Shown one piece after another: positions 2,680 through 36,778 of a stretch of 41,053 nucleotides of DNA. The notes beneath the pieces are model-generated. The model made no database searches. It was not told where the DNA came from and was given only the letters and a program-made list of their open reading frames with translations. The stretch lies in IMG/VR virus record IMGVR_UViG_3300028384_000549, positions 1 to 41,053 of that record; one strand, given 5' to 3'. The stretch is from a virus. Position numbers and translations under genes: made by a program. Positions within the stretch are counted from its first letter, which is position 1; every line of letters begins with the position of its first letter.

Positions 2680-3170
2680 TGAATAAAGTATTAGTTTTGA
2701 ATTCGGATTACACTCCGTTGAATGTAACGAATATGAGAAGAGGATTTATCCTTGTAATGAAGGGTAAAGCTGAGATTGTGAAAGAGGATGTGAATAAAAT
2801 CGTAACAACGATTGGTGAATTCGCAAAACCAATAATCATACGATTACTCAATTATATCGGATATCGGAATAAGGGTATAAAAGTGAATCGTAAACGAATT
2901 ATGAAGCGTGATGGATATGCGTGTGGGTATTGTAAATCCAAAAAGAATCTTACAATAGACCACATCATTCCAAAATCCAGAGGTGGTAAAAACACTTGGG
3001 ATAATTTGGTAACGTGTTGTAATCGATGTAATACAATTAAGGATAACAAAACACCAAATGAAGCGGGTATGACCTTAAAGGTTAAACCATACCAACCATC
3101 CATATTCTCATCAGTAATATCAGATGAGGTAGAGGTTGAATGGTCTTTGTACAAAAAAAGTTTTCAATGA
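2679..3170 (+). CDS. HNH endonuclease
   Basis: A 163-residue protein of the McrA/HNH type. The N-terminal segment VLVLNSDYTPLNVTNMRRGF is typical of the bacterial chromosomal HNH family rather than of intron-homing enzymes. The catalytic zinc-bound fold is C-x2-C (CGYC), LTIDHIIPKSRGG with the DH pair, N in WDNLV, and C-x2-C (CNRC). The ATG at 2679 overlaps the stop of the second Mom-like gene, so it is translationally coupled to the modification genes. A modification enzyme plus nuclease pair suggests that it cuts unmodified (host or competitor) DNA; that is inference. Confidence 0.85.
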   Translation: MNKVLVLNSDYTPLNVTNMRRGFILVMKGKAEIVKEDVNKIVTTIGEFAKPIIIRLLNYIGYRNKGIKVNRKRIMKRDGYACGYCKSKKNLTIDHIIPKSRGGKNTWDNLVTCCNRCNTIKDNKTPNEAGMTLKVKPYQPSIFSSVISDEVEVEWSLYKKSFQ

Positions 3171-3171
3171 A

Positions 3172-3203
3172 TTTGGTAGTTACGGAAATATTTCGTATAT
3201 TAG
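3172..3203 (+). promoter_or_regulatory. Bacteroidota-type promoter P2
   Basis: TTTG at 3172-3175, a 20-base spacer, and TATATTAG at 3196-3203, starting right after the HNH gene's stop. The first downstream gene starts at 3229, leaving a leader of about 20 bases that is A-rich and has no Shine-Dalgarno sequence. It should drive the GHKL-nuclease gene and what follows. Confidence 0.75.
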
Positions 3204-3228
3204 TAGTATAATAAATGAAAAATAAATT

Positions 3229-4749
3229 ATGGCTGAAGTTTTAGAACCACAAGTTATTAATAAACGCACAATCGCGGGAAAAAACTATGTGGGTTTGTGG
3301 AAAGGTTTGGGTAGAACTGACCGTCAATTCTACCAACTTATATCAGAGTTGATTGATAATACAATGACCCTTGATGGTAAAACTCATTGTAAAGTAACAA
3401 TAGATATTCCTAATAAGGAAATCACTATTACCGATGACTCAATTGGTATTCCTGATGGTAATTTGGAGGAGGTTATCTCAATGGGAAAAAAAGTAAATCA
3501 AGGTAAACAATTGTTTAGTTTTAGTGGGATTGGTATGAAAGCCGCTATTGCATCATTGGGTAATACTTTTTATTTACAAACAAAACCAAGAATCGAAGAG
3601 GATGTTGTTTATACATTGACTCCCAAATTTTCATTAACTGACCCATCTGAAAAGATTGCAACGTTTGATGAGGAACGAACGATATGTAATAGCACTCCAT
3701 ATGGTACTACATTAATAGTACGAGATATAAAAACATATCCAAAAAATATCACATCTTTCAATAGTATGGTCAGATACATTGGCGCTACTTATGCTGATTA
3801 TTTAGATGATGGAGATTTAAAGTTAACATTTAAGTATATACATGAGAATGGTAAAGTAACTCGTGAAGATGTTAAATCTCACCGACCAACATTATCTGAT
3901 AAAAATAATATCATAGATAGTGATTTGATGTTGGGCAAAAATCAACCCGAATTTAAAAATGTACCTTTAAAGGGTAACGGGTGGGAAGTATTGGTAAGTG
4001 CTGGTAGGAAAGCTCACCCATCAAGCGCAAAAGAATACTACGAAAACACATCACCCAAATTATACAATGATGTGTATGGCACTGAATCATCACCATATGG
4101 TTGGAGTGCATCTACATCAGGAGTTCAGTTTAAATCATCTGGTATCGGTAAAGATGCTACAAAGGGTAAGATTTTATTATTCCACCAATTGACCGCCAGC
4201 AGTAGGGCTGAAAGTTTTTGGTGTGAGGTTAGTTTGGTATCGGGTATAGAGCCGGGTATGATGAAATCCACATTAAATGAAAACACACAAACCTTTCATG
4301 AGATGAGAAGCGCATTAGATGAGTGGTTGAAGGATAGGGGATTTAGACAACGAAATCTAACAAAAACATTACACTATGGTGAAAGTAAAGAAGTTAGAGA
4401 TAAATGGAAATCATCTCTTAAAAATGATGATAAATTAAGACACGAATATGGTATATCTTTAGATAACTTTGACCAGCAAGTATCTACTGAAACTGAACTA
4501 CCCATTGGTCGTCCTGATATTTTTATAGAAACTGAAACTAGAACTATTATTGTAGAATGTAAGAAAGAAGAAATTAAAGCATTGGATGTAGCTCAAGCGG
4601 CCGGATACGCAGTTAATACTGATGCTGATTCTATCATATTAGTTGCTCAAAGAATGACTCCTGGTGGAATCAAAGCACAGGAGATGTGGTCGGATAAATT
4701 AAACATTCCAATTATATTTGATGCAATTCAGAAGAAGTATATGGTATGA
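3229..4749 (+). CDS. GHKL (MORC/Hsp90-like) ATPase fused to a PD-(D/E)XK nuclease domain
   Basis: A 506-residue two-domain protein. Residues about 10-200 form a GHKL ATPase: N-box ELIDN at 40-44, the metal/ATP-lid strand TDDSIGIPDG around 68-77, and the glycine-rich FSFSGIGMKAA at 96-106. The middle resembles the transducer of MORC/MutL-type ATPases. The last 80 residues form a restriction-like nuclease core, GRPDIFI with D430 and IIVECKK with E443 and K445, then an amphipathic helix. Prokaryotic MORC-type ATPases are known from restriction-modification neighbourhoods. The gene follows two Mom-like genes and an HNH nuclease. It probably loads on DNA using ATP and cleaves it; target choice is unknown. 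It overlaps the next gene by 4 bases. Confidence 0.75.
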   Translation: MAEVLEPQVINKRTIAGKNYVGLWKGLGRTDRQFYQLISELIDNTMTLDGKTHCKVTIDIPNKEITITDDSIGIPDGNLEEVISMGKKVNQGKQLFSFSGIGMKAAIASLGNTFYLQTKPRIEEDVVYTLTPKFSLTDPSEKIATFDEERTICNSTPYGTTLIVRDIKTYPKNITSFNSMVRYIGATYADYLDDGDLKLTFKYIHENGKVTREDVKSHRPTLSDKNNIIDSDLMLGKNQPEFKNVPLKGNGWEVLVSAGRKAHPSSAKEYYENTSPKLYNDVYGTESSPYGWSASTSGVQFKSSGIGKDATKGKILLFHQLTASSRAESFWCEVSLVSGIEPGMMKSTLNENTQTFHEMRSALDEWLKDRGFRQRNLTKTLHYGESKEVRDKWKSSLKNDDKLRHEYGISLDNFDQQVSTETELPIGRPDIFIETETRTIIVECKKEEIKALDVAQAAGYAVNTDADSIILVAQRMTPGGIKAQEMWSDKLNIPIIFDAIQKKYMV

Positions 4750-15890: not shown

Positions 15891-17288
15891 ATGACCAAAC
15901 AGAGAAAAAAGCCTCTGATACTTTTACTATCAGATGATTTAAGGTTACATAGTGGTATCGCCACAATGTCAAAAGAGCTGGTACTACACACCGCTCATAA
16001 ATTCGATTGGTTGCAAGTGGGTGCGGCCGTAAAACATCCCGATGAAGGAAAGTTTTTTGATGTATCAGATGATATCAATAAAGAAGCAGGTATCACAGAT
16101 GCAAGTGTTAGAATCATACCATCGAGTGGTTATGGTAATCAACAGATGCTTCGGCAGATAATCACTACTGAAAACCCAGATGCAATCCTACACTTCACCG
16201 ACCCTCGCTTTTGGGGGTGGTTGTATTCTATGGAAGATGAGATTCGTAGACACATTCCAATTTTCTACTATAACATTTGGGATGATTTGCCAGACCCGAT
16301 GTGGAACGCACCCTTCTATGGAAGTTGTGATTTACTGATGGGTATCTCAAAACAAACGTATGGTATCAACAAACGTGTTATGGAAAAGTTTGGTATGGCA
16401 ATGGAAGATTGGCAGATTCGCTATGTACCACATGGTGTATCTGAACGATATAAACCAATCTCTGAAGATTCCGAAGAATACCAATCGGTATTGAATATGA
16501 AAAAATCATTGGGAATTGAAAATAAGAAATTTGTGATATTGTACAACAACAGAAATATCCGTAGAAAGAATCCTGGTGATGTAGTATTAGCATACAAAGA
16601 GTTTTGTGATACACTTACACCTGATGAGATTAAGGATGTAGTATTGTTGTTCCATACTCAGGAAGTAGACCCGAATGGTACTGATTTACCTGAGGTTATT
16701 AAGAATGTTTGTCCTGATTATGATGTGGTGTTCACCAATAGTAAATACTCAACTAATGACTTGAATTTGGTTTATAATCTTGCTGATGTTACAATTAATA
16801 TGGCATCTAATGAGGGATTTGGTTTGGCAACTTGTGAATCGGTAAACGCAGGTACACCAATCATTGTAAATGTAACTGGTGGTATGCAAGACCAATGTAA
16901 TTTTACAATCGATGGTAAATATATTACACCCGAACAATATGTTGAATTAGGTTCACTTCACAATCGTAAGAAACTACCTGAAAATCTAAGTTGGGGTAGT
17001 TGGGTAAATCCTATATGGCCATCGAATCGCTCATTACAAGGTTCACCAGCAACACCATACATTTTTGATGATAGATGTTCATACGAAGATGCTGCTAAAG
17101 CTATTAGACAGTGGTACGATACTCCAAAGGAACGTAGAATTGAATGTGGATTAGAAGGTTCTAAATGGATGAAATCAGAAGAAAGTGGAATGAGTGCTTC
17201 CCAAATGGGTAAACGTTTTGTTAAATGTATGGAAACCGCATTAGAAAAGTGGCAACCAATAAATGAAGTAGTATTATGGAAGATATAA
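15891..17288 (+). CDS. GT4-type glycosyltransferase
   Basis: A 465-residue GT-B enzyme. N-terminal half: PLILLLSDDLRLHSGIATMS, where the glycine-containing loop binds the acceptor. C-terminal half: KFVILYNNRNIRRKNPGD and the donor-site E-x7-E motif in ASNEGFGLATCESVNAGTP. A long acidic/aromatic insertion follows before the final helix. It transfers an unknown sugar. It opens the glycan island and overlaps the next glycosyltransferase by 13 bases, so the two probably act in sequence. Confidence 0.85.
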   Translation: MTKQRKKPLILLLSDDLRLHSGIATMSKELVLHTAHKFDWLQVGAAVKHPDEGKFFDVSDDINKEAGITDASVRIIPSSGYGNQQMLRQIITTENPDAILHFTDPRFWGWLYSMEDEIRRHIPIFYYNIWDDLPDPMWNAPFYGSCDLLMGISKQTYGINKRVMEKFGMAMEDWQIRYVPHGVSERYKPISEDSEEYQSVLNMKKSLGIENKKFVILYNNRNIRRKNPGDVVLAYKEFCDTLTPDEIKDVVLLFHTQEVDPNGTDLPEVIKNVCPDYDVVFTNSKYSTNDLNLVYNLADVTINMASNEGFGLATCESVNAGTPIIVNVTGGMQDQCNFTIDGKYITPEQYVELGSLHNRKKLPENLSWGSWVNPIWPSNRSLQGSPATPYIFDDRCSYEDAAKAIRQWYDTPKERRIECGLEGSKWMKSEESGMSASQMGKRFVKCMETALEKWQPINEVVLWKI

Positions 17289-18604
17289 AAAAGTTTTGTG
17301 TAGTAAGTTGTCCAATTTCCACTCGTAGTGGATATGGCGCAAGGAGTAGAGATTTTGTTAGAGCTCTAATTAAATCAAAGCCAGATTGGGATATCAAAAT
17401 CCTATCACAAAGATGGGGTGAAACCGCAATGGATGTTTTGGAGCCAGGCGCTGATGATGATTTGTTGAATAGAATTATATTCAAAAAAGAGAATAGAAAG
17501 CCAAATGTTTGGATTCAAATTACTGTACCAAATGAATTTCAACCCGTTGGGGATTACAACATTGGGGTAACTGCTGGTGTGGAAACCACAATCATGCCAC
17601 CTGCGTGTTTGGAAGGGATTAATCGAATGGATAAGGTTTTGGTATCATCTGAGTTTACTAAGAAGGTAATCGAAAGTACTACATTTGATAAGAAAGACCA
17701 GCAGACAAATCAAATGGTTGGACAATTAAAATGCACAACTCCAGTAGATGTTTTATTTGAAGGTATTGATATCAACATATATAATAATAAAGCTGAGTCT
17801 GAGGTGGGTATCAATGATGCACTAAAAGATGTTAAAGAACCATTTGCATTTTTGTTTGTTGGGCATTGGCTCAAAGGAGATTTTCAACAAGATAGAAAGA
17901 ATGTAGGTGGTTTGATTTGGACATTCTTAAACGCGTTTAAGAATAAAACAAAACAACCAGCTCTAATTCTAAAAACAAGTGGTGGTAGTACATCATTGGT
18001 AGATAGAGTTCGAATTAAAAAAATGATTGAACAGATTAAATCACAATGTGATTCTGCCAGATTACCAAACATCTACTTACTTCATGCCGATTTAACTGAT
18101 GAAGAAATGAACGCATTGTATAACCACCCGAAGGTTAAAGCACACGTTTCATTTACAAGAGGTGAGGGATTTGGTAGACCTTTGTTGGAAGCAACAATTA
18201 GTGGTAAACCAATGGTAGTATCGGCATGGTCGGGTCATACGGATTTCTTAAATCCTGAAATGGTAACTTTAGTTGGGGGTAATCTAACAAAAGTACATAA
18301 ATCGGCAGCAGATAAACAATTCTTATTAGAAGAGGCTGAGTGGTTTGAGATAGATTATGGTATTGCTGGTGGTGTTATGAAGGATATGTTTGATAATTAT
18401 AAGAAGTATTTGGAGAAGTCCAGAAAGCATAGACAATACACTAAAGATAGGTTTACATTTGAACATATGGTAACTCTATTGGGAACTCAACTTGAAGATG
18501 TTAACTCTAAACCACAAACTGTTGGATTGACATTACCAAAGTTGAAAAAGAAAGAAGAACCGAAAAAAGTAGAACTACCTAAATTAAAAAAGGTAACTGA
18601 GTAA
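17276..18604 (+). CDS. GT4-type glycosyltransferase
   Basis: A 442-residue GT-B enzyme. The N-terminal strand and loop are KFCVVSCPISTRSGYGARSR; the E-x7-E motif is in FTRGEGFGRPLLEATISGKP. The last 40 residues are a lysine/proline-rich tail (KLKKKEEPKKVELPKLKK) unlike the catalytic core, possibly an anchoring or interaction tail. ATG 17276 lies inside the end of the preceding glycosyltransferase, and its stop overlaps the next start (TAATG). Confidence 0.85.
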   Translation: MEDIKKFCVVSCPISTRSGYGARSRDFVRALIKSKPDWDIKILSQRWGETAMDVLEPGADDDLLNRIIFKKENRKPNVWIQITVPNEFQPVGDYNIGVTAGVETTIMPPACLEGINRMDKVLVSSEFTKKVIESTTFDKKDQQTNQMVGQLKCTTPVDVLFEGIDINIYNNKAESEVGINDALKDVKEPFAFLFVGHWLKGDFQQDRKNVGGLIWTFLNAFKNKTKQPALILKTSGGSTSLVDRVRIKKMIEQIKSQCDSARLPNIYLLHADLTDEEMNALYNHPKVKAHVSFTRGEGFGRPLLEATISGKPMVVSAWSGHTDFLNPEMVTLVGGNLTKVHKSAADKQFLLEEAEWFEIDYGIAGGVMKDMFDNYKKYLEKSRKHRQYTKDRFTFEHMVTLLGTQLEDVNSKPQTVGLTLPKLKKKEEPKKVELPKLKKVTE

Positions 18605-29120: not shown

Positions 29121-30002
29121 ATGTTATTAAAAGTTGGTTCACGTGGAAATGAAGTAAAATTATTACAAGAATTTCTTGGGATTGGAGCAGATGGGATTTT
29201 CGGTAAGGGAACTGAAGCAGCAGTTAAAGAGTTTCAAAAAATCAACGGTCTTACTGCTGATGGTATTGTTGGCCCTGCCACTTGGGATTGTATGGGTATC
29301 GCTACTACTGATGATTCTGAGAAGGCGTATGAAACGGAAAATGGTTTAATCGTAAACAGACATTTCCTTCCAGTTGGGGAATACAAATCAGGCCCAACAA
29401 ATAAAGAATATTGTTTCTTACATCATACTGCTGGATGGCACAATCCATACAATTGTATAGACCAATGGGGTAGAGATTCTCGTGGTGCTGTTGCAACTGA
29501 ATTTGTATTGGGTGGGCCATCGGTAAAAGGAAACGATGAATCATACGATGGTGTAATGGTTCAAGCATTTCCAGAAGGTGCATATGGATGGCACTTGGGA
29601 AAGAATGGTTCACAACACATGCATACACATTCAGTAGGTATCGAAGTATGTAACTTTGGATACGTTAAGGATGGTAAAACATATGCGGGAACCAGAGTAC
29701 ACGAATCACAATTGGTTGAATTAGATAAACCATTTAGAGGATTCAAAACTTGGCATAGATATTCGGATGACCAAATCGAAGCACTGAGATTATGGATTCT
29801 TTGGATTGGTGAAAGAGATGGTATTGATATCAGAGCTGGATTACCATCATTGGTTAAACAAAAAGGTGCAGATGCATTTGAGTTTAATGAGGATGCATAC
29901 TATGGTAAAGTGAAGGGTGTGTGGACTCACACAAACACTCGTAAAGATAAATTTGATATGTTTCCACAACAAGAGTTGTTGGATATGTTAGTGGGGTTAT
30001 AA
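29121..30002 (+). CDS. Endolysin: peptidoglycan-binding domain plus N-acetylmuramoyl-L-alanine amidase
   Basis: A 293-residue lysin. Residues 1-58 are a PG_binding_1 domain (LLKVGSRGNEVKLLQEFLG, DGIFGKGTEAAVKEFQ, DGIVGPATW). Residues about 85-260 are a PGRP/Amidase_2 zinc amidase: H101-H102 in FLHHTAGWH, SVGIEVCNFG with E175, and a C-terminal histidine in the GVWTHTNTR region. There is no signal peptide, so a holin is needed; two holin-like genes lie at 34121 and 34381. The start follows a strong GGAGG at 29110-29114. Confidence 0.93.
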   Translation: MLLKVGSRGNEVKLLQEFLGIGADGIFGKGTEAAVKEFQKINGLTADGIVGPATWDCMGIATTDDSEKAYETENGLIVNRHFLPVGEYKSGPTNKEYCFLHHTAGWHNPYNCIDQWGRDSRGAVATEFVLGGPSVKGNDESYDGVMVQAFPEGAYGWHLGKNGSQHMHTHSVGIEVCNFGYVKDGKTYAGTRVHESQLVELDKPFRGFKTWHRYSDDQIEALRLWILWIGERDGIDIRAGLPSLVKQKGADAFEFNEDAYYGKVKGVWTHTNTRKDKFDMFPQQELLDMLVGL

Positions 30003-30003
30003 T

Positions 30004-30117
30004 ATGAATCAGTTAGAAGATATATTTGATACGGACTGGTTCAAAGAACTTCCGTGGAAAAATAGAATATGGATTAGAATCAAAGTTGCATTCTTTGGAT
30101 TTATGGAGATGATGTAA
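30004..30117 (+). CDS. 37-residue hypothetical protein
   Basis: A short ORF, acidic first half (LEDIFDTDWFKELPW) and a basic amphipathic second half (NRIWIRIKVAFFGFMEMM). It fills the gap between endolysin and a small membrane protein, with its TAA overlapping the next ATG (TAATG). Packing supports it; function not recognised, possibly a peripheral membrane peptide. Confidence 0.5.
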   Translation: MNQLEDIFDTDWFKELPWKNRIWIRIKVAFFGFMEMM

Positions 30118-30305
30118 TGAAAAATTGGACTTCAGTAAGAGCAGTGTATCTACTCATGTCAATCGTACTATTATCGGCAATGGTGTTAGATAATTGGTGG
30201 GTAGTGGTATTTGTTATCGCTATGTTAAATGTTGGGGTATGGACTAAGTTTTGTCCATCTAAGTGGTTGTTTGAGAAGATTGGGTTAAGAAAGACGGAGC
30301 TCTAA
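30117..30305 (+). CDS. Small two-helix membrane protein (DUF2892-like)
   Basis: A 62-residue protein with two membrane helices (VYLLMSIVLLSAMVL and WWVVVFVIAMLNVGVW) and a C-terminal CPSKWLFEKIGLRK. The layout resembles DUF2892 inner-membrane proteins. The next gene, a sensor kinase, carries a similar CPPTLFLAKFGW after its first membrane helix, so the kinase membrane anchor may be related to this small protein. Confidence 0.65.
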   Translation: MKNWTSVRAVYLLMSIVLLSAMVLDNWWVVVFVIAMLNVGVWTKFCPSKWLFEKIGLRKTEL

Positions 30306-30306
30306 A

Positions 30307-31557
30307 ATGAGCGCTCTTTCTGGCATTTCGCTAAAATCAAAAATAGCACTGGCAGTAGCTGGTGTTATTATGTTAACCTTTTTTGTGGTTCAAACTTGTA
30401 TAGTATTTGAGTTATGCCCACCCACACTCTTCTTAGCTAAGTTTGGGTGGGGTTGTGTTGTTGCGTTTATGCCACCATTCTTTATGGTTGTTTCTGAGTT
30501 CATTGGAAACATCAAACTGAAGGAAGAGAGGATTGATTCTCAATTAGCAGGTATTAGCCAATCCAACTTAGTAGTAAAACTAACAATGGATGGTTACATT
30601 TTATCGGCAAATCCAAACTTTTGTACTCTTATGGGATGTGCTGAGGGTGAGGTTACAAAACAACCCCATAGTAGGATGGTTACACCTGAATATGCTAAAA
30701 GTAAAGAATATTTAGAGTTTTGGGAAAAATTAAGGAGAGGTGAGAGTATTACTGGTGAGTTTGAGAGGGTAGCTAAAGATGGTTCAAAAAGATGGTTATA
30801 TGGTAACTACACTCCAATCAAAAACAAAGATGGAGAGTACGATACAATTCTGAAAATAGCCACAGATGTTACAGCACAACATAAAGCAGAAGAAGTGGTA
30901 ACACAAAAGAATGCGTACTTAGAACACGCCGCAAAGATACTCAGACACGATATGCACAGTGGTATCAATACTTATATTCCTCGTGGGTTATCTTCACTAC
31001 GACGTAGGTTAGATGATGATAAAATCAAAGAGTTAAGAATAGGCGCACCACTACGAATGTTAGAGGAGGGGCTAAAGCATACACAAAAAGTATATGCTGG
31101 TGTTAAAGAGTTTACCAATTTGGTAAAAGAAGATGTTCAGCTCGATAAATCGGATTACGATATTAGACAAATACTTAAAGAATATTTATCATCTACATCT
31201 TACTCAAAGCAAGTGATGATTGATGAGTTACCAACTATATCAGTTAATCAGGCACTGTTTTGTACAGCTATCGATAATTTAATTAGAAATGGTTTGAAAT
31301 ATAATGATAGTTCCACTAAAATGGTCACTATTTATATGGAGAACGATTCTACGCTATGTGTAGAAGATAATGGTAGAGGATTGACATCTGAAGAATTCAA
31401 TGAGTTATCCAAACCATATGTAAGAAAGAAAGGACAAAAGGAAAGTGGTTCTGGATTGGGATTGAATATATGTATTTCGATTCTGAAAGAACATGGTTTT
31501 GAAATAAGTGCAGAGAAAGTTAACCCAGGAACTAAATTAAGGATAAAGGTAAAATGA
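30307..31557 (+). CDS. Membrane PAS-domain sensor histidine kinase
   Basis: A 416-residue kinase. Two membrane helices (about 14-33 and 47-66) enclose a very short outer loop. A PAS domain spans about 80-195 (SNLVVKLTMDGYILSANPNF to ILKIATDVTAQHK, the latter a PAC segment). The phospho-acceptor is H214 in LRHDMHSGIN. The ATP-binding domain has N-box DNLIRNGLKYND (324-334), G1 DNGRG (354-358) and G2 GSGLGL (381-386). All catalytic motifs are intact. It overlaps the response regulator by 4 bases. With almost no periplasmic part, it probably senses the membrane itself or a cytoplasmic cue through PAS. Confidence 0.92.
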   Translation: MSALSGISLKSKIALAVAGVIMLTFFVVQTCIVFELCPPTLFLAKFGWGCVVAFMPPFFMVVSEFIGNIKLKEERIDSQLAGISQSNLVVKLTMDGYILSANPNFCTLMGCAEGEVTKQPHSRMVTPEYAKSKEYLEFWEKLRRGESITGEFERVAKDGSKRWLYGNYTPIKNKDGEYDTILKIATDVTAQHKAEEVVTQKNAYLEHAAKILRHDMHSGINTYIPRGLSSLRRRLDDDKIKELRIGAPLRMLEEGLKHTQKVYAGVKEFTNLVKEDVQLDKSDYDIRQILKEYLSSTSYSKQVMIDELPTISVNQALFCTAIDNLIRNGLKYNDSSTKMVTIYMENDSTLCVEDNGRGLTSEEFNELSKPYVRKKGQKESGSGLGLNICISILKEHGFEISAEKVNPGTKLRIKVK

Positions 31558-32000
31558 GCGATATGATTAACTCAATTTTGTTGGTGGATGATGAAGATTT
31601 ATTCCACTTAGTATTCGAAGATGCGTGTAGCATTTTGGACATCACACTATCTCTTGAAGCACTCAACTCTTCCGATGAGGCGGATAGAAAATTCCGTGAA
31701 TGGTTTCCCGATGACCCAAATCATGAAAGGCCCGAATGTGTATTCGTTGATTTGAACATCATTGGCTCATCGTTTGATGGAATTGAATTGATTAGAAAAA
31801 TCAACTTTGATTATGGTAATGGTTGTGTGATTGGTATCATATCATCATCCGATGATAACCAAGAAATTGAAAAAGCAAAAGCAGCTGGTGCTCAATTTTG
31901 GATTATTAAGTCTGATGATATTGAACCAAGATTAGAAGAGTTCCGTAACGATTACGATGGATACTTAAATAAAACAAATCCATTTAAAGTTTATAAATGA
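31554..32000 (+). CDS. Stand-alone response regulator receiver domain
   Basis: A 148-residue receiver with the acid pair D12-D13 (LLVDDED), phospho-acceptor D66 (CVFVDLNI), switch serine near 98-99 (IISSSDD) and K119 (WIIKSD). No DNA-binding or enzymatic output domain follows, so it must act through protein contact, like CheY. The ATGA overlaps on both sides put it in one translational unit with the kinase and a coiled-coil membrane protein. Confidence 0.92.
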   Translation: MSDMINSILLVDDEDLFHLVFEDACSILDITLSLEALNSSDEADRKFREWFPDDPNHERPECVFVDLNIIGSSFDGIELIRKINFDYGNGCVIGIISSSDDNQEIEKAKAAGAQFWIIKSDDIEPRLEEFRNDYDGYLNKTNPFKVYK

Positions 32001-32497
32001 TAAAAAAATTAGGACATATCTTAACATACCACGATTCAGAACCAACTGAGGTTCTGCAAGGATTAATATGGTTCATATTTGCACCTATTGTATTAGAAGC
32101 AGAATTCTTTCCACAATTATGGTATGTTGCCATTATTAGTGTTCTCATTGGGATGGGTACATTATATTCGGTAGTATATCGTAGTTTAGAAGTAAGAAGA
32201 TTGTTTGGATATGGGTACGCCTCACTGGCTGTATTGTTTGTTATGATACACTTTTTGAACAAAGATTTAGTGTGGACTCCTATGAATTGGGGGTGGGTTG
32301 TTATAGCTATTAGTGGTATAAGTAATATCCGAAGAATCACTCAAAAAATTCAATCTAAAAAAAGTGATAAAGTAAAAGATGATATCTCCCAAATGTACAG
32401 AGAAGATTTGGAAAAAAAGATTGAAGAGTTACAAAAACAAAATTTTGATTTGAGACTGGAGAAAATAAAGCTCAATGAGAAATTATTAGATGAGTAA
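31997..32497 (+). CDS. Membrane protein with cytoplasmic coiled coil
   Basis: A 166-residue protein with about four membrane helices (GLIWFIFAPIVLEA, LWYVAIISVLIGMGTLYSV, YASLAVLFVMIHFL, WGWVVIAISGI) followed by a charged heptad-like helix of about 45 residues (DLEKKIEELQKQNFDLRLEK). Its start overlaps the response-regulator stop, and I infer a functional link: the coiled coil could receive the signal. A holin-related role is another option. No family recognised. Confidence 0.7.
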   Translation: MIKKLGHILTYHDSEPTEVLQGLIWFIFAPIVLEAEFFPQLWYVAIISVLIGMGTLYSVVYRSLEVRRLFGYGYASLAVLFVMIHFLNKDLVWTPMNWGWVVIAISGISNIRRITQKIQSKKSDKVKDDISQMYREDLEKKIEELQKQNFDLRLEKIKLNEKLLDE

Positions 32498-32503
32498 TGT
32501 GTT

Positions 32504-33100
32504 ATGAAACTAAATGAGTTATCCAAAGAAAACATACTGAAACTAGCATCGGAAAAGAGAATATATTTAGAAGGTAATATTCTGAAAGTATTGAAAGCAT
32601 CCGATGGTGATACTGAGGTGATTGAATATCTGAAGCAATGTAAGGATAAGGATACAACTGCTCGTAAAAAGAGATTACAGGTCACAAAGCAAGTTCAGAA
32701 ACAAAACAAAGAGTTAGTTACCAAACAAAAGGAAACTGATGACTTGATGGTTGAACTTCAAAACGCATTGGATTCTGCCAAAAAATCCGAAGAGGAGGCA
32801 AACAAACTCAGAGAAGATGCTGAGAAATCAAAGGATAAGGCATTAGAGGATTTGGACCTGATGCAGAAAAAATCTCAGTTTGAGTTGATTGGTACGATTG
32901 TAAGAGTTGCACTTTGGGTAATTATTGGGGTAGGTACGTTAACCACACTAATGTATGGGTTTGCTATAGTGAATGATAAGGAAACACAAATCATCGGTAG
33001 TACTTGGTCAAATATGTTTGGTATCCTTCTTACGAACGCGTTCTCAATTGTAGGTACGATTATGGGTGTGAAGTATGCATCCGAGTCTGATAAAAAATAA
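32504..33100 (+). CDS. Coiled-coil protein with C-terminal membrane hairpin
   Basis: A 198-residue protein. A long charged coiled coil covers about residues 50-125 (QVQKQNKELVTKQKETDDLM, SEEEANKLREDAEKSKDKAL), followed by two membrane helices (LIGTIVRVALWVIIGVGTLT and FGILLTNAFSIVGTIMG). The topology, cytoplasmic coil then hairpin, mirrors the preceding gene in reverse order, so the two coils could pair. Possibly a lysis or signalling scaffold; not recognised. Confidence 0.65.
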   Translation: MKLNELSKENILKLASEKRIYLEGNILKVLKASDGDTEVIEYLKQCKDKDTTARKKRLQVTKQVQKQNKELVTKQKETDDLMVELQNALDSAKKSEEEANKLREDAEKSKDKALEDLDLMQKKSQFELIGTIVRVALWVIIGVGTLTTLMYGFAIVNDKETQIIGSTWSNMFGILLTNAFSIVGTIMGVKYASESDKK

Positions 33101-34380: not shown

Positions 34381-34833
34381 ATGAATTTGTTAGGTGATAA
34401 AATGATATTATTGAAATCAACAACGACTCAGCTCGCTATGGGTATTTCTGCGTTTTGTGGATTTATGGGTAGTTACTTTATGAATTTGACTGCCAATAAC
34501 ACAGAGCAGTATTTGGCAGTAGTAGCTGTGATGTTGTTAGATGGGTTCTTCGGAGTAATCGCAGGAATCAAAAGAGAAGGTTTCAAAACCTACAAAGCAT
34601 TAAACGTACTAAAAAATATATTCGCGTGGGAATTAATTCTCACAGTAGTTCTATCAATTGAATTAGGATTCAAAGGAACTTCTTGGTTATCCGAAACAAT
34701 ATTAGCACCATTTATGGTATTCCAAATGGTATCTGCGTTAAAAAACGCATCAATGGCGGGATTCATTAAGAACGAATTACTTAATGAAATCTTAGATAGA
34801 ATCGATTCTCACAAAGGAAAACGCCAAAAATAA
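34381..34833 (+). CDS. Phage holin-like protein (holin 4_1 type)
   Basis: A 150-residue membrane protein with about three to four helices. The stretch VVAVMLLDGFFGVIAGIKRE, then a TYKALNVLKNIFAWELILT helix, matches the D-x2-x-G-v-x-A-i-k...S-x-k-x-x-G-x-x-K pattern of the holin_4_1/toxin-secretion holin family. The C-terminus is charged (RIDSHKGKRQK). ATG 34402 is an alternative start giving 143 residues. It probably forms the membrane lesion that releases the amidase at 29121. Confidence 0.7.
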   Translation: MNLLGDKMILLKSTTTQLAMGISAFCGFMGSYFMNLTANNTEQYLAVVAVMLLDGFFGVIAGIKREGFKTYKALNVLKNIFAWELILTVVLSIELGFKGTSWLSETILAPFMVFQMVSALKNASMAGFIKNELLNEILDRIDSHKGKRQK

Positions 34834-35031: not shown

Positions 35032-35393
35032 TGGATAGATTAGAAAAACTAATGGAACTTCTTGAGAAGAAGTATGGTAGTGTTTCCGTTGAAGGAACTA
35101 ATAAATCACGAATCAGAGAAATAGTACGTGAAGAGATAGAAAGGGTGAAAGAATCCCTTGAAGAAGTTGATGATTCGCAAATCTCGATGACGTTCGCATC
35201 ACTTGAAAGAGCGATGAAATACTCAAAAGGTATTTATGGCAAAATGAAAGAGAGTGGTGTTAAGGATGTTGATGGTTGGGTATTTGCTAAAATTACTCTT
35301 GCTGAAGATTATCTGAAATCGGTTTATAGTTACTTAGATGGTAAAGATGGGTTAGATGATACACCAAACACACCAGATGATGTAGGGGGATAA
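35031..35393 (+). CDS. Phage protein with helical WVxxKITLAxDY domain (120 aa)
   Basis: A 120-residue acidic, mostly helical protein. The N-terminus (MDRLEKLMELLEKKYGSVSV) is an amphipathic helix. The core ERAMKYSKGIYGKMKESGV and DGWVFAKITLAEDYLKSVYS resembles a small domain I recall from many phage virion or head-associated proteins, in which a tryptophan-valine pair precedes K-I-T-x-A-x-D-Y. The tail is aspartate-rich. Function not known; the context suggests a virion component. Confidence 0.55.
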   Translation: MDRLEKLMELLEKKYGSVSVEGTNKSRIREIVREEIERVKESLEEVDDSQISMTFASLERAMKYSKGIYGKMKESGVKDVDGWVFAKITLAEDYLKSVYSYLDGKDGLDDTPNTPDDVGG

Positions 35394-36778
35394 TGCCGAA
35401 CTTTAACAGAAAAGATATGCCGCAAGTTAGTACTCAGAATATGAGTAAAGCGTTGGATAGAGTTGCTGATAGGGTAAGAGTATCCAAAGAATCAATTCGT
35501 GCTTCAAAGTTAAAGAAATCTCAGAAAGAACTTTACAAAAATAAAGTAAAGGGAATCGCATCAAAATTCAGTTCTCCAAATTCAATGAAACCATTGGTGA
35601 TATCAAAAGATAATCACATTGTAGATGGACACCACAGATGGGCAGCCGCAATCTACAAATGGGGTGAAGATGTGAAAATACCAGTTCATCGAATCAATCT
35701 TACTGCTGTAAATGCCATCAAACTATATAGTATGATTGCTAACTCTATTGAGGAAATGGTTAGTGAACTAAAAGAAGGTGTGTGGTCTAAATCAGCACTA
35801 GCGGCAATGCATCGTAAACCAATGCCGGGTAGATACTTTATCTCAGATGAGAATGGTAATGTAGTAGAAAAGGGTTTGAAAACTCGCCGTTCTTGGGTTA
35901 CTTATTTGCACAGAATGGGTAAGATTGGCGGTTCATTGAGTTATCACGGAATACCAAAAGTAGTTAACATCCACGATGGTAAGAAGAACAACGAAGTCGT
36001 TGACCAATACTATTGGAGAGATAAGTATGGTAAGGGTAGATACTCAATTGATATCGATAACCCAACTCTTGGAAGCTTCGATAAGATTGACCCTAAATAT
36101 GTAAACTATAAAGAGATTGAGAAGCAACTTGGTTTGAAAGAAGCCATCACCATTCCGATTGAGATTGGTGATACTGTTTTGGGTGGTAAGTTCAAAAACA
36201 AACCAATCGTAGTGAAATCAATCGATAAGAATGAGAAGGGTGATATCACAATCAATGGTAAACCACTACTTAAATTCAGATTGATGAAAGAGGGTAACGA
36301 CCAATTAGAAATGATGAAGTTACTCAGTAAGGCAATGAAAGCAATGCCGGGTTCACCAAAACAGAAGAAGATTAAGCAGGAGTTGAACAAACTCAGAATC
36401 AAAAATGGGTTAGAACCTATTCCTGAGGGATTAATGAATGAAATTCCTATGGATGACCTTCAGAAGATTGATACATTCGCAGATAAGAAGCTTAATCCAG
36501 TTGATGTGGTAATCACCGATAAACACTTCTTCGATAGATTGAATGACCCTCGAAATGGAAAAGAGATTACCTCAGCAGAGTTGATTGGATTCTTCAAAAG
36601 ATTATCTAAGCATAAGAAAGATTTTGTTGAGTTCCTAAACAAGTACAATTCAGTAGTCGCTGTGGATGATAGAACGAACATCAATATTCCATTTATGAAG
36701 CAGGCTAACAAGGCAATCGCTAAGACAGTGATGAGAAAAAAAGATTTCAAAACACCCGACCAAAAGTTGGATATTTAA
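35393..36778 (+). CDS. Multidomain phage protein with ParB-like N-terminal domain
   Basis: A 461-residue mosaic. Residues about 60-100 hold a ParB/sulfiredoxin-type motif, PLVISKDNHIVDGHHRWAAA. A second segment (120-240) includes RKPMPGRYFISDENG and VVDQYYWRDKYGKG. A third is strand-rich (IGDTVLGGKFKNKP). The C-terminal domain, with DKHFFDRLNDPRNGKEIT and ending AKTVMRKKDFKTPD, resembles a recurrent cyanophage/T4-like domain with an H-x-x-x-R-x-N-x-x-R-N signature. The segments are separated by LKEG, LKEA, LMKEG and PEG-LMNE stretches that look like prohead protease sites. The ParB-like part may bind or hydrolyse nucleotide; activity is unproven. Confidence 0.6.
   Translation: MPNFNRKDMPQVSTQNMSKALDRVADRVRVSKESIRASKLKKSQKELYKNKVKGIASKFSSPNSMKPLVISKDNHIVDGHHRWAAAIYKWGEDVKIPVHRINLTAVNAIKLYSMIANSIEEMVSELKEGVWSKSALAAMHRKPMPGRYFISDENGNVVEKGLKTRRSWVTYLHRMGKIGGSLSYHGIPKVVNIHDGKKNNEVVDQYYWRDKYGKGRYSIDIDNPTLGSFDKIDPKYVNYKEIEKQLGLKEAITIPIEIGDTVLGGKFKNKPIVVKSIDKNEKGDITINGKPLLKFRLMKEGNDQLEMMKLLSKAMKAMPGSPKQKKIKQELNKLRIKNGLEPIPEGLMNEIPMDDLQKIDTFADKKLNPVDVVITDKHFFDRLNDPRNGKEITSAELIGFFKRLSKHKKDFVEFLNKYNSVVAVDDRTNINIPFMKQANKAIAKTVMRKKDFKTPDQKLDI

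Follow-up and report, generated by a model that had tools for sequence, protein, structure and literature searches.

The virus record IMGVR_UViG_3300028384_000549 from IMG/VR (41 kb; its whole length was analyzed and is referred to as the window) carries three genes encoding a membrane sensor histidine kinase (HK), a single-domain response regulator (RR), and a 198-residue protein with a membrane hairpin (T198). The catalytic residues of HK and RR are intact, and the genes are under purifying selection and strictly linked over many viral backgrounds. The best explanation, which we consider moderately probable, is that they form a self-contained phage three-component module with a membrane hairpin as an output that tunes lysis or membrane takeover; that the three proteins belong to one pathway is highly probable. 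An earlier note on this DNA had read HK and RR as a pair by themselves; the pair stands, while T198, a key part of the system, had been missed.

The kinase and the receiver have intact catalytic sites

HK (416 aa; 30307..31557, plus strand) consists of two transmembrane (TM) helices (aa 9–33 and 41–66), a PAS_3 domain (aa 88–187), a DHp domain with H214 (codon at nt 30946–30948), and a CA domain. Pfam detected PAS_3 (4.9e-13) and HATPase_c (1.3e-13), both above cut-off, and the AF2 model (mean pLDDT 82) contains TM helices at aa 9–33 and 41–86 together with the PAS, DHp, and CA domains; searched with Foldseek, this model matched PAS/LOV histidine kinases with E-values down to 4e-18. Because the two TM helices are linked by a very short loop in the AF2 model, HK has no extracytoplasmic sensor. 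Residues H214, D215, N324, N328, D354, G356, G358, G381, G383, and G385 are invariant in 74 of 74 HK homologues, as is the H-box motif RHDMHSGIN. The DHp domain resembles known kinases by AF2 and Foldseek; Pfam HisKA (PF00512) gave no match on HK at E ≤ 0.1, and because of this missing score we regard the domain as divergent. The claim of an intact membrane PAS histidine kinase with H214 and N and G boxes is thus borne out, and its coordinates and residue numbering are right.

RR (148 aa; 31554..32000, plus strand) overlaps HK by 4 nt (ATGA). Pfam placed a Response_reg domain (3.4e-7, above cut-off) at aa 8–120 and found no further domain. D12, D13, the phospho-acceptor D66 (codon at nt 31749–31751), S98, and K119 are invariant in 75/75 homologues and in 145–146 of the 146 proteins of a wider set. 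The residue that follows the receiver lysine is usually a proline; in RR, it is S120. Identity among receivers is 80–95% over the 80 nearest viral loci, and 78 of the 148 residues are near-invariant. An intact receiver with D66 and without an output domain therefore overlaps the kinase as the earlier note had described, with correct coordinates and overlap. As for its broader proposal, a functional-looking phage two-component system is strongly supported, while a free CheY-like messenger is probably not what RR is, because RR is genetically tied to the membrane effector T198. No chemotaxis genes were seen among the neighborhood families examined.

A third gene encodes a membrane-hairpin protein

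T198 (198 aa; 32504..33100, plus strand) is proposed as the effector on the basis of gene linkage, AF2 modeling, and domain homology. The protein is composed of an N-terminal domain and a long coiled coil (aa 1–128) followed by a C-terminal TM hairpin of two hydrophobic helices (aa 129–192); in the AF2 model, a 120-residue helix (37–156) is followed by a second helix (162–195). The hairpin carries the near-invariant motif WSNxFGILLTNxFSIxGTIMGVKxA. Conservation within the protein peaks in TM2, with a mean column identity of 93% among 143 proteins, and polar/small residues line up as a stripe along this helix (helical moment p = 0.012). No matching family was found in Pfam, NCBIfam, PHROGs, or PADLOC, no PDB fold matched significantly, and the single significant match among viral structures is an uncharacterised phage protein. 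We considered and rejected that T198 is a known holin, given that Phage_holin_9 was matched only at 0.019, below threshold, with neither a holin family match nor a significant PDB fold match. T198 is an undescribed protein family, present in hundreds of viral records.

The main argument for T198 as the output is an apparent domain exchange behind the receiver. A cassette in the Bacteroidota MAG RH-18aug17-329 (L131) has the order HK (with three PAS domains), RR, and a second kinase, HK2, whose first ~90 residues are homologous to the N-terminal ~90 aa of T198 (hhalign probability 98.9%, BLASTP 8e-15) and are followed by HisKA-HATPase. This cassette resembles the module in its order, its kinase core (51–52%), its receiver (67%), and the N-terminal domain of its third gene (32%), and differs in that the third gene ends in HisKA-HATPase with no TM hairpin and that the kinase is soluble with three PAS domains. 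The homology suggests that the N-terminal domain stays with the receiver, whereas the part that follows this domain as output is exchanged. Because the phage protein has a membrane hairpin in place of the kinase domain, T198 is probably the output of the module.

The module is conserved across hundreds of viral sequences

Single-protein scans of IMG/VR yielded relatives of HK in at least 549 stretches, of T198 in at least 526, and of RR, with a Bacteroidota receiver as query, in 503; the carriers are hundreds of uncultivated phage sequences, mostly aquatic. Median dN/dS, taken over pairs with pS 0.1–0.6, was 0.19 for HK, 0.07 for RR, and 0.15 for T198. When neighboring genes were clustered for 104 distinct receiver loci, exactly three genes were near-universal: RR (103), HK (98), and T198 (95). 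Among loci with enough sequence, HK adjoins RR in 84/85 and RR is followed by T198 in 72/73 (72/72 if only viral loci are counted, the sole exception being the chromosomal locus L132), and RR lies upstream of T198 in 94/94, with the reservation that these loci are related by descent and cannot be counted as independent cases. T198 also follows RR in 92/92 loci of a more distant second set, which has some contigs in common with the first, and all 92 complete third genes there encode a TM hairpin. A survey of related phages for the same gene order, as proposed in the earlier note, thus finds the order kept and the pair present in hundreds of viral records.

The order is maintained despite inserts of 0.5–1.7 kb of other genes. 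In locus L048 (9245–10870), for instance, a 541-aa repeat-rich ORF lies between HK and RR and overlaps both by 4 nt. The module is found in several unrelated gene neighborhoods. The window itself carries T4-type replication genes (DNA polymerase, clamp, and clamp loader, by PHROGs), and T4-type Gp23 capsid was found in 13 of 26 large carrier records, which reach 430 kb. The 50,697 deposited phage records searched contained neither RR nor T198, and kinase matches in them were partial at most. Five near relatives (169–178 kb) have no kinase and no intact T198 in a search that included positive controls; because these relatives live without it, the module is dispensable cargo. A 169-kb relative with 85% polymerase identity (L245) contains a deletion remnant at the site of the module (2990–3291), in which 28 codons of the upstream membrane gene are followed by a 70-codon T198 hairpin ORF with a TTG start, HK and RR being gone.

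Neighboring genes and proximity to lysis genes

In the window, the module is flanked by the genes of an amidase endolysin and of a holin-like protein, both of which we regard as neighbors rather than core components. The endolysin (29121..30002, plus strand) has PG_binding_1 and Amidase_2 domains by Pfam, in agreement with its earlier assignment as an amidase, and a homologue lies near the module in 29/104 loci. The holin-like protein (34381..34833, plus strand) matches Phage_holin_4_1 at 2e-4, just under cut-off, and the holin family PHROG 199 at 1.7e-4, with homologues near the module in 47/104 loci. Two further genes are accessory. Immediately upstream of HK, a 62-aa membrane protein (30117..30305, plus strand) with the conserved motif WTKFCPSKW is present in 44/104 loci; it had been called DUF2892-like, a label that was not recovered, a sub-threshold match to DUF4395 being the best obtained. 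Between RR and T198, a 166-aa protein (31997..32497, plus strand) with hydrophobic N-terminal segments and a coiled-coil C-terminus occurs in a subset of 22/104 loci, in which the gap from RR to T198 is ~500 nt. The coupled run recognized earlier therefore continues further, through this gene to 33100.

Homologues of lysis genes (three unrelated endolysin types, or holin) were located within 5 kb of the module in 16/38 loci and within 6 kb in 29/62 other loci, whereas the share of the genome lying that close to lysis genes is 0–9% in six whole records; the loci are related by descent, and detection is by similarity to four proteins only. By the same similarity, no lysis gene was recognized in the vicinity of the majority of loci, and other neighborhoods contain nrdA/nrdB, baseplate genes (gp25, gp6), or putative capsid/scaffold genes, the nrd and capsid labels being read from the sequences. 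The enrichment makes a role in lysis plausible. The link to lysis suggested in the earlier note is thus suggestive on statistical grounds (42–47% of loci versus 0–9% of genome length) but not universal.

Several other genes in the window were recorded. A 38-aa ORF (MNQLEDIFDTDWFKELPWKN...) at 30004–30120, between the endolysin and the 62-aa membrane protein, is kept in L245 (75% over 20 aa). Downstream of the holin-like gene lies a ParB-like gene (35393–36778; PHROG 2859, 2.1e-21). Tandem genes at 1137–1895 and 1879–2679 encode Mom-like DNA modification proteins (PHROG 1384, 1.6e-51 and 1.7e-46); such a duplication is unusual and points to hypermodified bases. Two consecutive overlapping genes at 15891–17288 and 17276–18604 are glycosyltransferase-like (PHROG 2170).

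The sensor part varies while the core is constant

Among 96 unique kinases, 73 have TM helices and a PAS_3 domain of the window type, 15 have TM helices and no PAS, and six have a FAD-type PAS; two Bacteroidota kinases carry both PAS types. On the kinase-core tree, the viral sensor type switches at least eight times. Across the module, the kinase core, the receiver, and the hairpin are thus constant and the sensor part is variable. A separate arrangement is seen in a 237-kb record (L295, 3899–6004), in which two successive kinases, one without a membrane hairpin and with an unrelated N-terminus and the other membrane-bound without PAS, precede a single receiver and T198.

By sequence, the nearest PAS domains are those of MmoS (9.6e-16) and Aer (2.9e-8). 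The flavin in Aer is contacted by H53, N85, and R115 (PMC9668731). Equivalents of all three are kept in the FAD-type PAS of the sibling kinases (8/8 domains), and these siblings likely sense redox, judging from these residues. In the window-type PAS, H53 is kept in 75/76 and the W70 equivalent is also conserved, whereas N85 is replaced by R in 75/76 and R115 by A in 74/76. With two of the three contacts lost, we rejected FAD binding by the window PAS as an established property. Because 15/96 kinases have no PAS, redox sensing cannot be the common input; given the variety of sensors, a common input would have to act through the membrane hairpin or the kinase core. Sensing of energy or membrane state by HK is plausible.

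Bacterial relatives and likely host

A scan of 84,980 species genomes returned three loci only. Two of them are on Bacteroidota MAG contigs with bacterial neighbors, and the third, which has PhoH and other phage-like genes beside it, is probably a phage contig. Sampling of Bacteroidota revealed no homologues beyond the two source MAGs. On the Bacteroidota chromosomal locus L132 (6114–9080), tandem repeats of FAD-type and PAS_3-type domains, divided between two ORFs, precede the kinase core, and a third gene is absent. Judged by the baseplate gene, Microcystis phage Mel-JY01 (43%) and Flavobacterium phage immuto (39%) come closest among isolates, and the nearest named isolate by the amidase is Tenacibaculum phage PTm1; based on these relationships, the host is likely a member of the Bacteroidota.

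Proposed mechanism and alternatives

In our working model, HK would sense an intracellular or membrane variable via its TM hairpin and exchangeable PAS domain and autophosphorylate on H214, from which the phosphate would move to D66 of the receiver. The receiver, either loaded or unloaded, would then bind the N-terminal domain or the coiled coil of T198, and the long helix of T198 would relay the change into the two-helix membrane hairpin. The hairpin would most likely oligomerise and alter the inner membrane, either as a pore or by controlling the phage holin, and lysis or membrane takeover would thereby be tuned to cell physiology. We infer the phosphotransfer, the binding of RR to T198, and the effect on the membrane or lysis; for the binding, the basis is synteny together with the domain exchange. 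Where a separate holin-like gene is present, T198 is not the sole candidate pore. That the output bears on lysis timing is a tentative suggestion, to which we give somewhat less than even weight.

The module could instead result from chance capture of bacterial genes with no function in the phage, and the five near relatives without the module and the deletion remnants in one relative might be taken to favor this. The earlier note had named absence of the pair from all related phages as a sign of such capture; apart from the five near relatives, the opposite was found. Purifying selection across at least 500 viral stretches, strict linkage of three genes, and the occurrence of bacterial relatives in only 3/84,980 species genomes, one probably a phage contig, leave this explanation a vanishingly small probability, and dN/dS, invariant sites, and gene linkage likewise rule out decayed genes. 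A hijack of host signaling deserves more weight and yet is unlikely. Here host kinases or regulators would be the targets of HK and RR, which would serve as a phosphate sink or CheY-like messenger and redirect host stress, motility, or metabolic responses, and T198 would be a membrane anchor or scaffold and not the output. This reading has arguments on both sides: it would fit a single-domain receiver with no output, a whole receiver surface that is very strongly conserved (78/148 near-invariant), and related cassettes on Bacteroidota chromosomes, but apart from the kinase T198 is the one gene constantly associated with the receiver, its most conserved element is the membrane hairpin and not an anchor of variable sequence, and the module is present in diverse phages, probably with different hosts.

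Given that T198 combines a TM hairpin with a large cytoplasmic domain and that many neighborhoods feature nrdA/nrdB, capsid, or baseplate genes and are remote from lysis genes, we also considered that T198, under the control of HK/RR, serves in superinfection exclusion or membrane stabilization and not in the regulation of lysis. The enrichment near lysis genes of unrelated kinds argues against this, as does the lack of likeness to known exclusion proteins in Pfam, NCBIfam, and PADLOC, and we find it quite unlikely. Nor do we attach much probability to a redox or energy auxiliary set, in which the input (respiration, redox, light, or oxygen) is central and host metabolism is adjusted. The similarity of the PAS to MmoS (9.6e-16) and Aer (2.9e-8) and the complete H53/N85/R115 equivalents in the sibling FAD-type PAS (8/8) point in that direction, whereas in the window PAS R stands in place of N85 and A in place of R115, 15/96 kinases have no PAS at all, and no metabolic output gene is linked to the module; this explanation is distinctly improbable. 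We therefore retain the three-component module with a membrane-hairpin output as our preferred reading.

Comparison with known systems

In the usual account, tailed phages time lysis via holin accumulation or listen via quorum sensing or arbitrium peptides. The conserved trio suggests that its carriers monitor the condition of the cell they infect and respond at its membrane; if it works in this way, many phages would take a direct reading of their host cell, and their action at the membrane would be post-translational. In the open-access literature, we found no report of a phage that combines a complete two-component system with its own membrane effector. A broader reading, in which tailed phages of a widespread class, T4-type and jumbo phages among them, make a physiological decision during infection through their own complete phosphorelay, with a receiver-gated membrane protein as output (a phospho-switched holin/antiholin), is doubtful at present; if true, the module would be the first two-component pathway from sensor to membrane known to be encoded by a virus. 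The module opens the T198 family to study and offers a wiring scheme that can be tested, with two phosphorylation sites known.

Compared with canonical bacterial two-component systems (VicK and HK853-RR468 by fold), the module has the same H/N/G boxes, DD/D/S/K site, operon with a 4-nt overlap, and full-length fold match, and it differs in being virus-encoded, in a DHp domain that Pfam HisKA misses, in a receiver with K-S/T instead of K-P, and in having as output a membrane-hairpin protein of its own where the canonical systems have a DNA-binding domain. The FAD-PAS proteins Aer and MmoS (8DIK, 3EWK; PMC9668731) provide the nearest PAS of known structure and share the H53 and W70 equivalents; because the window PAS has R for N85 and A for R115, FAD binding cannot be assumed, and, as in MmoS, a kinase forms the output in place of chemoreceptor signaling. 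Phage phiCDHM1 is reported to encode an AgrC membrane histidine kinase near its lysis genes with no response regulator in the phage (PMC3901668); its AgrC/AgrB/AgrD are a quorum-sensing kinase and peptide genes, whereas the module is complete, with a PAS-type kinase, a regulator, and an effector, and has no AgrB/AgrD peptide genes among its neighbors. The cREC domain of jumbo phages, whose definition excludes any co-occurrence with histidine kinases and includes a link to NAD+/ADPr enzymes (PMC7824862), is likewise a receiver-like domain in large phages, but the receiver of the module lies beside a kinase in 84 of 85 loci.
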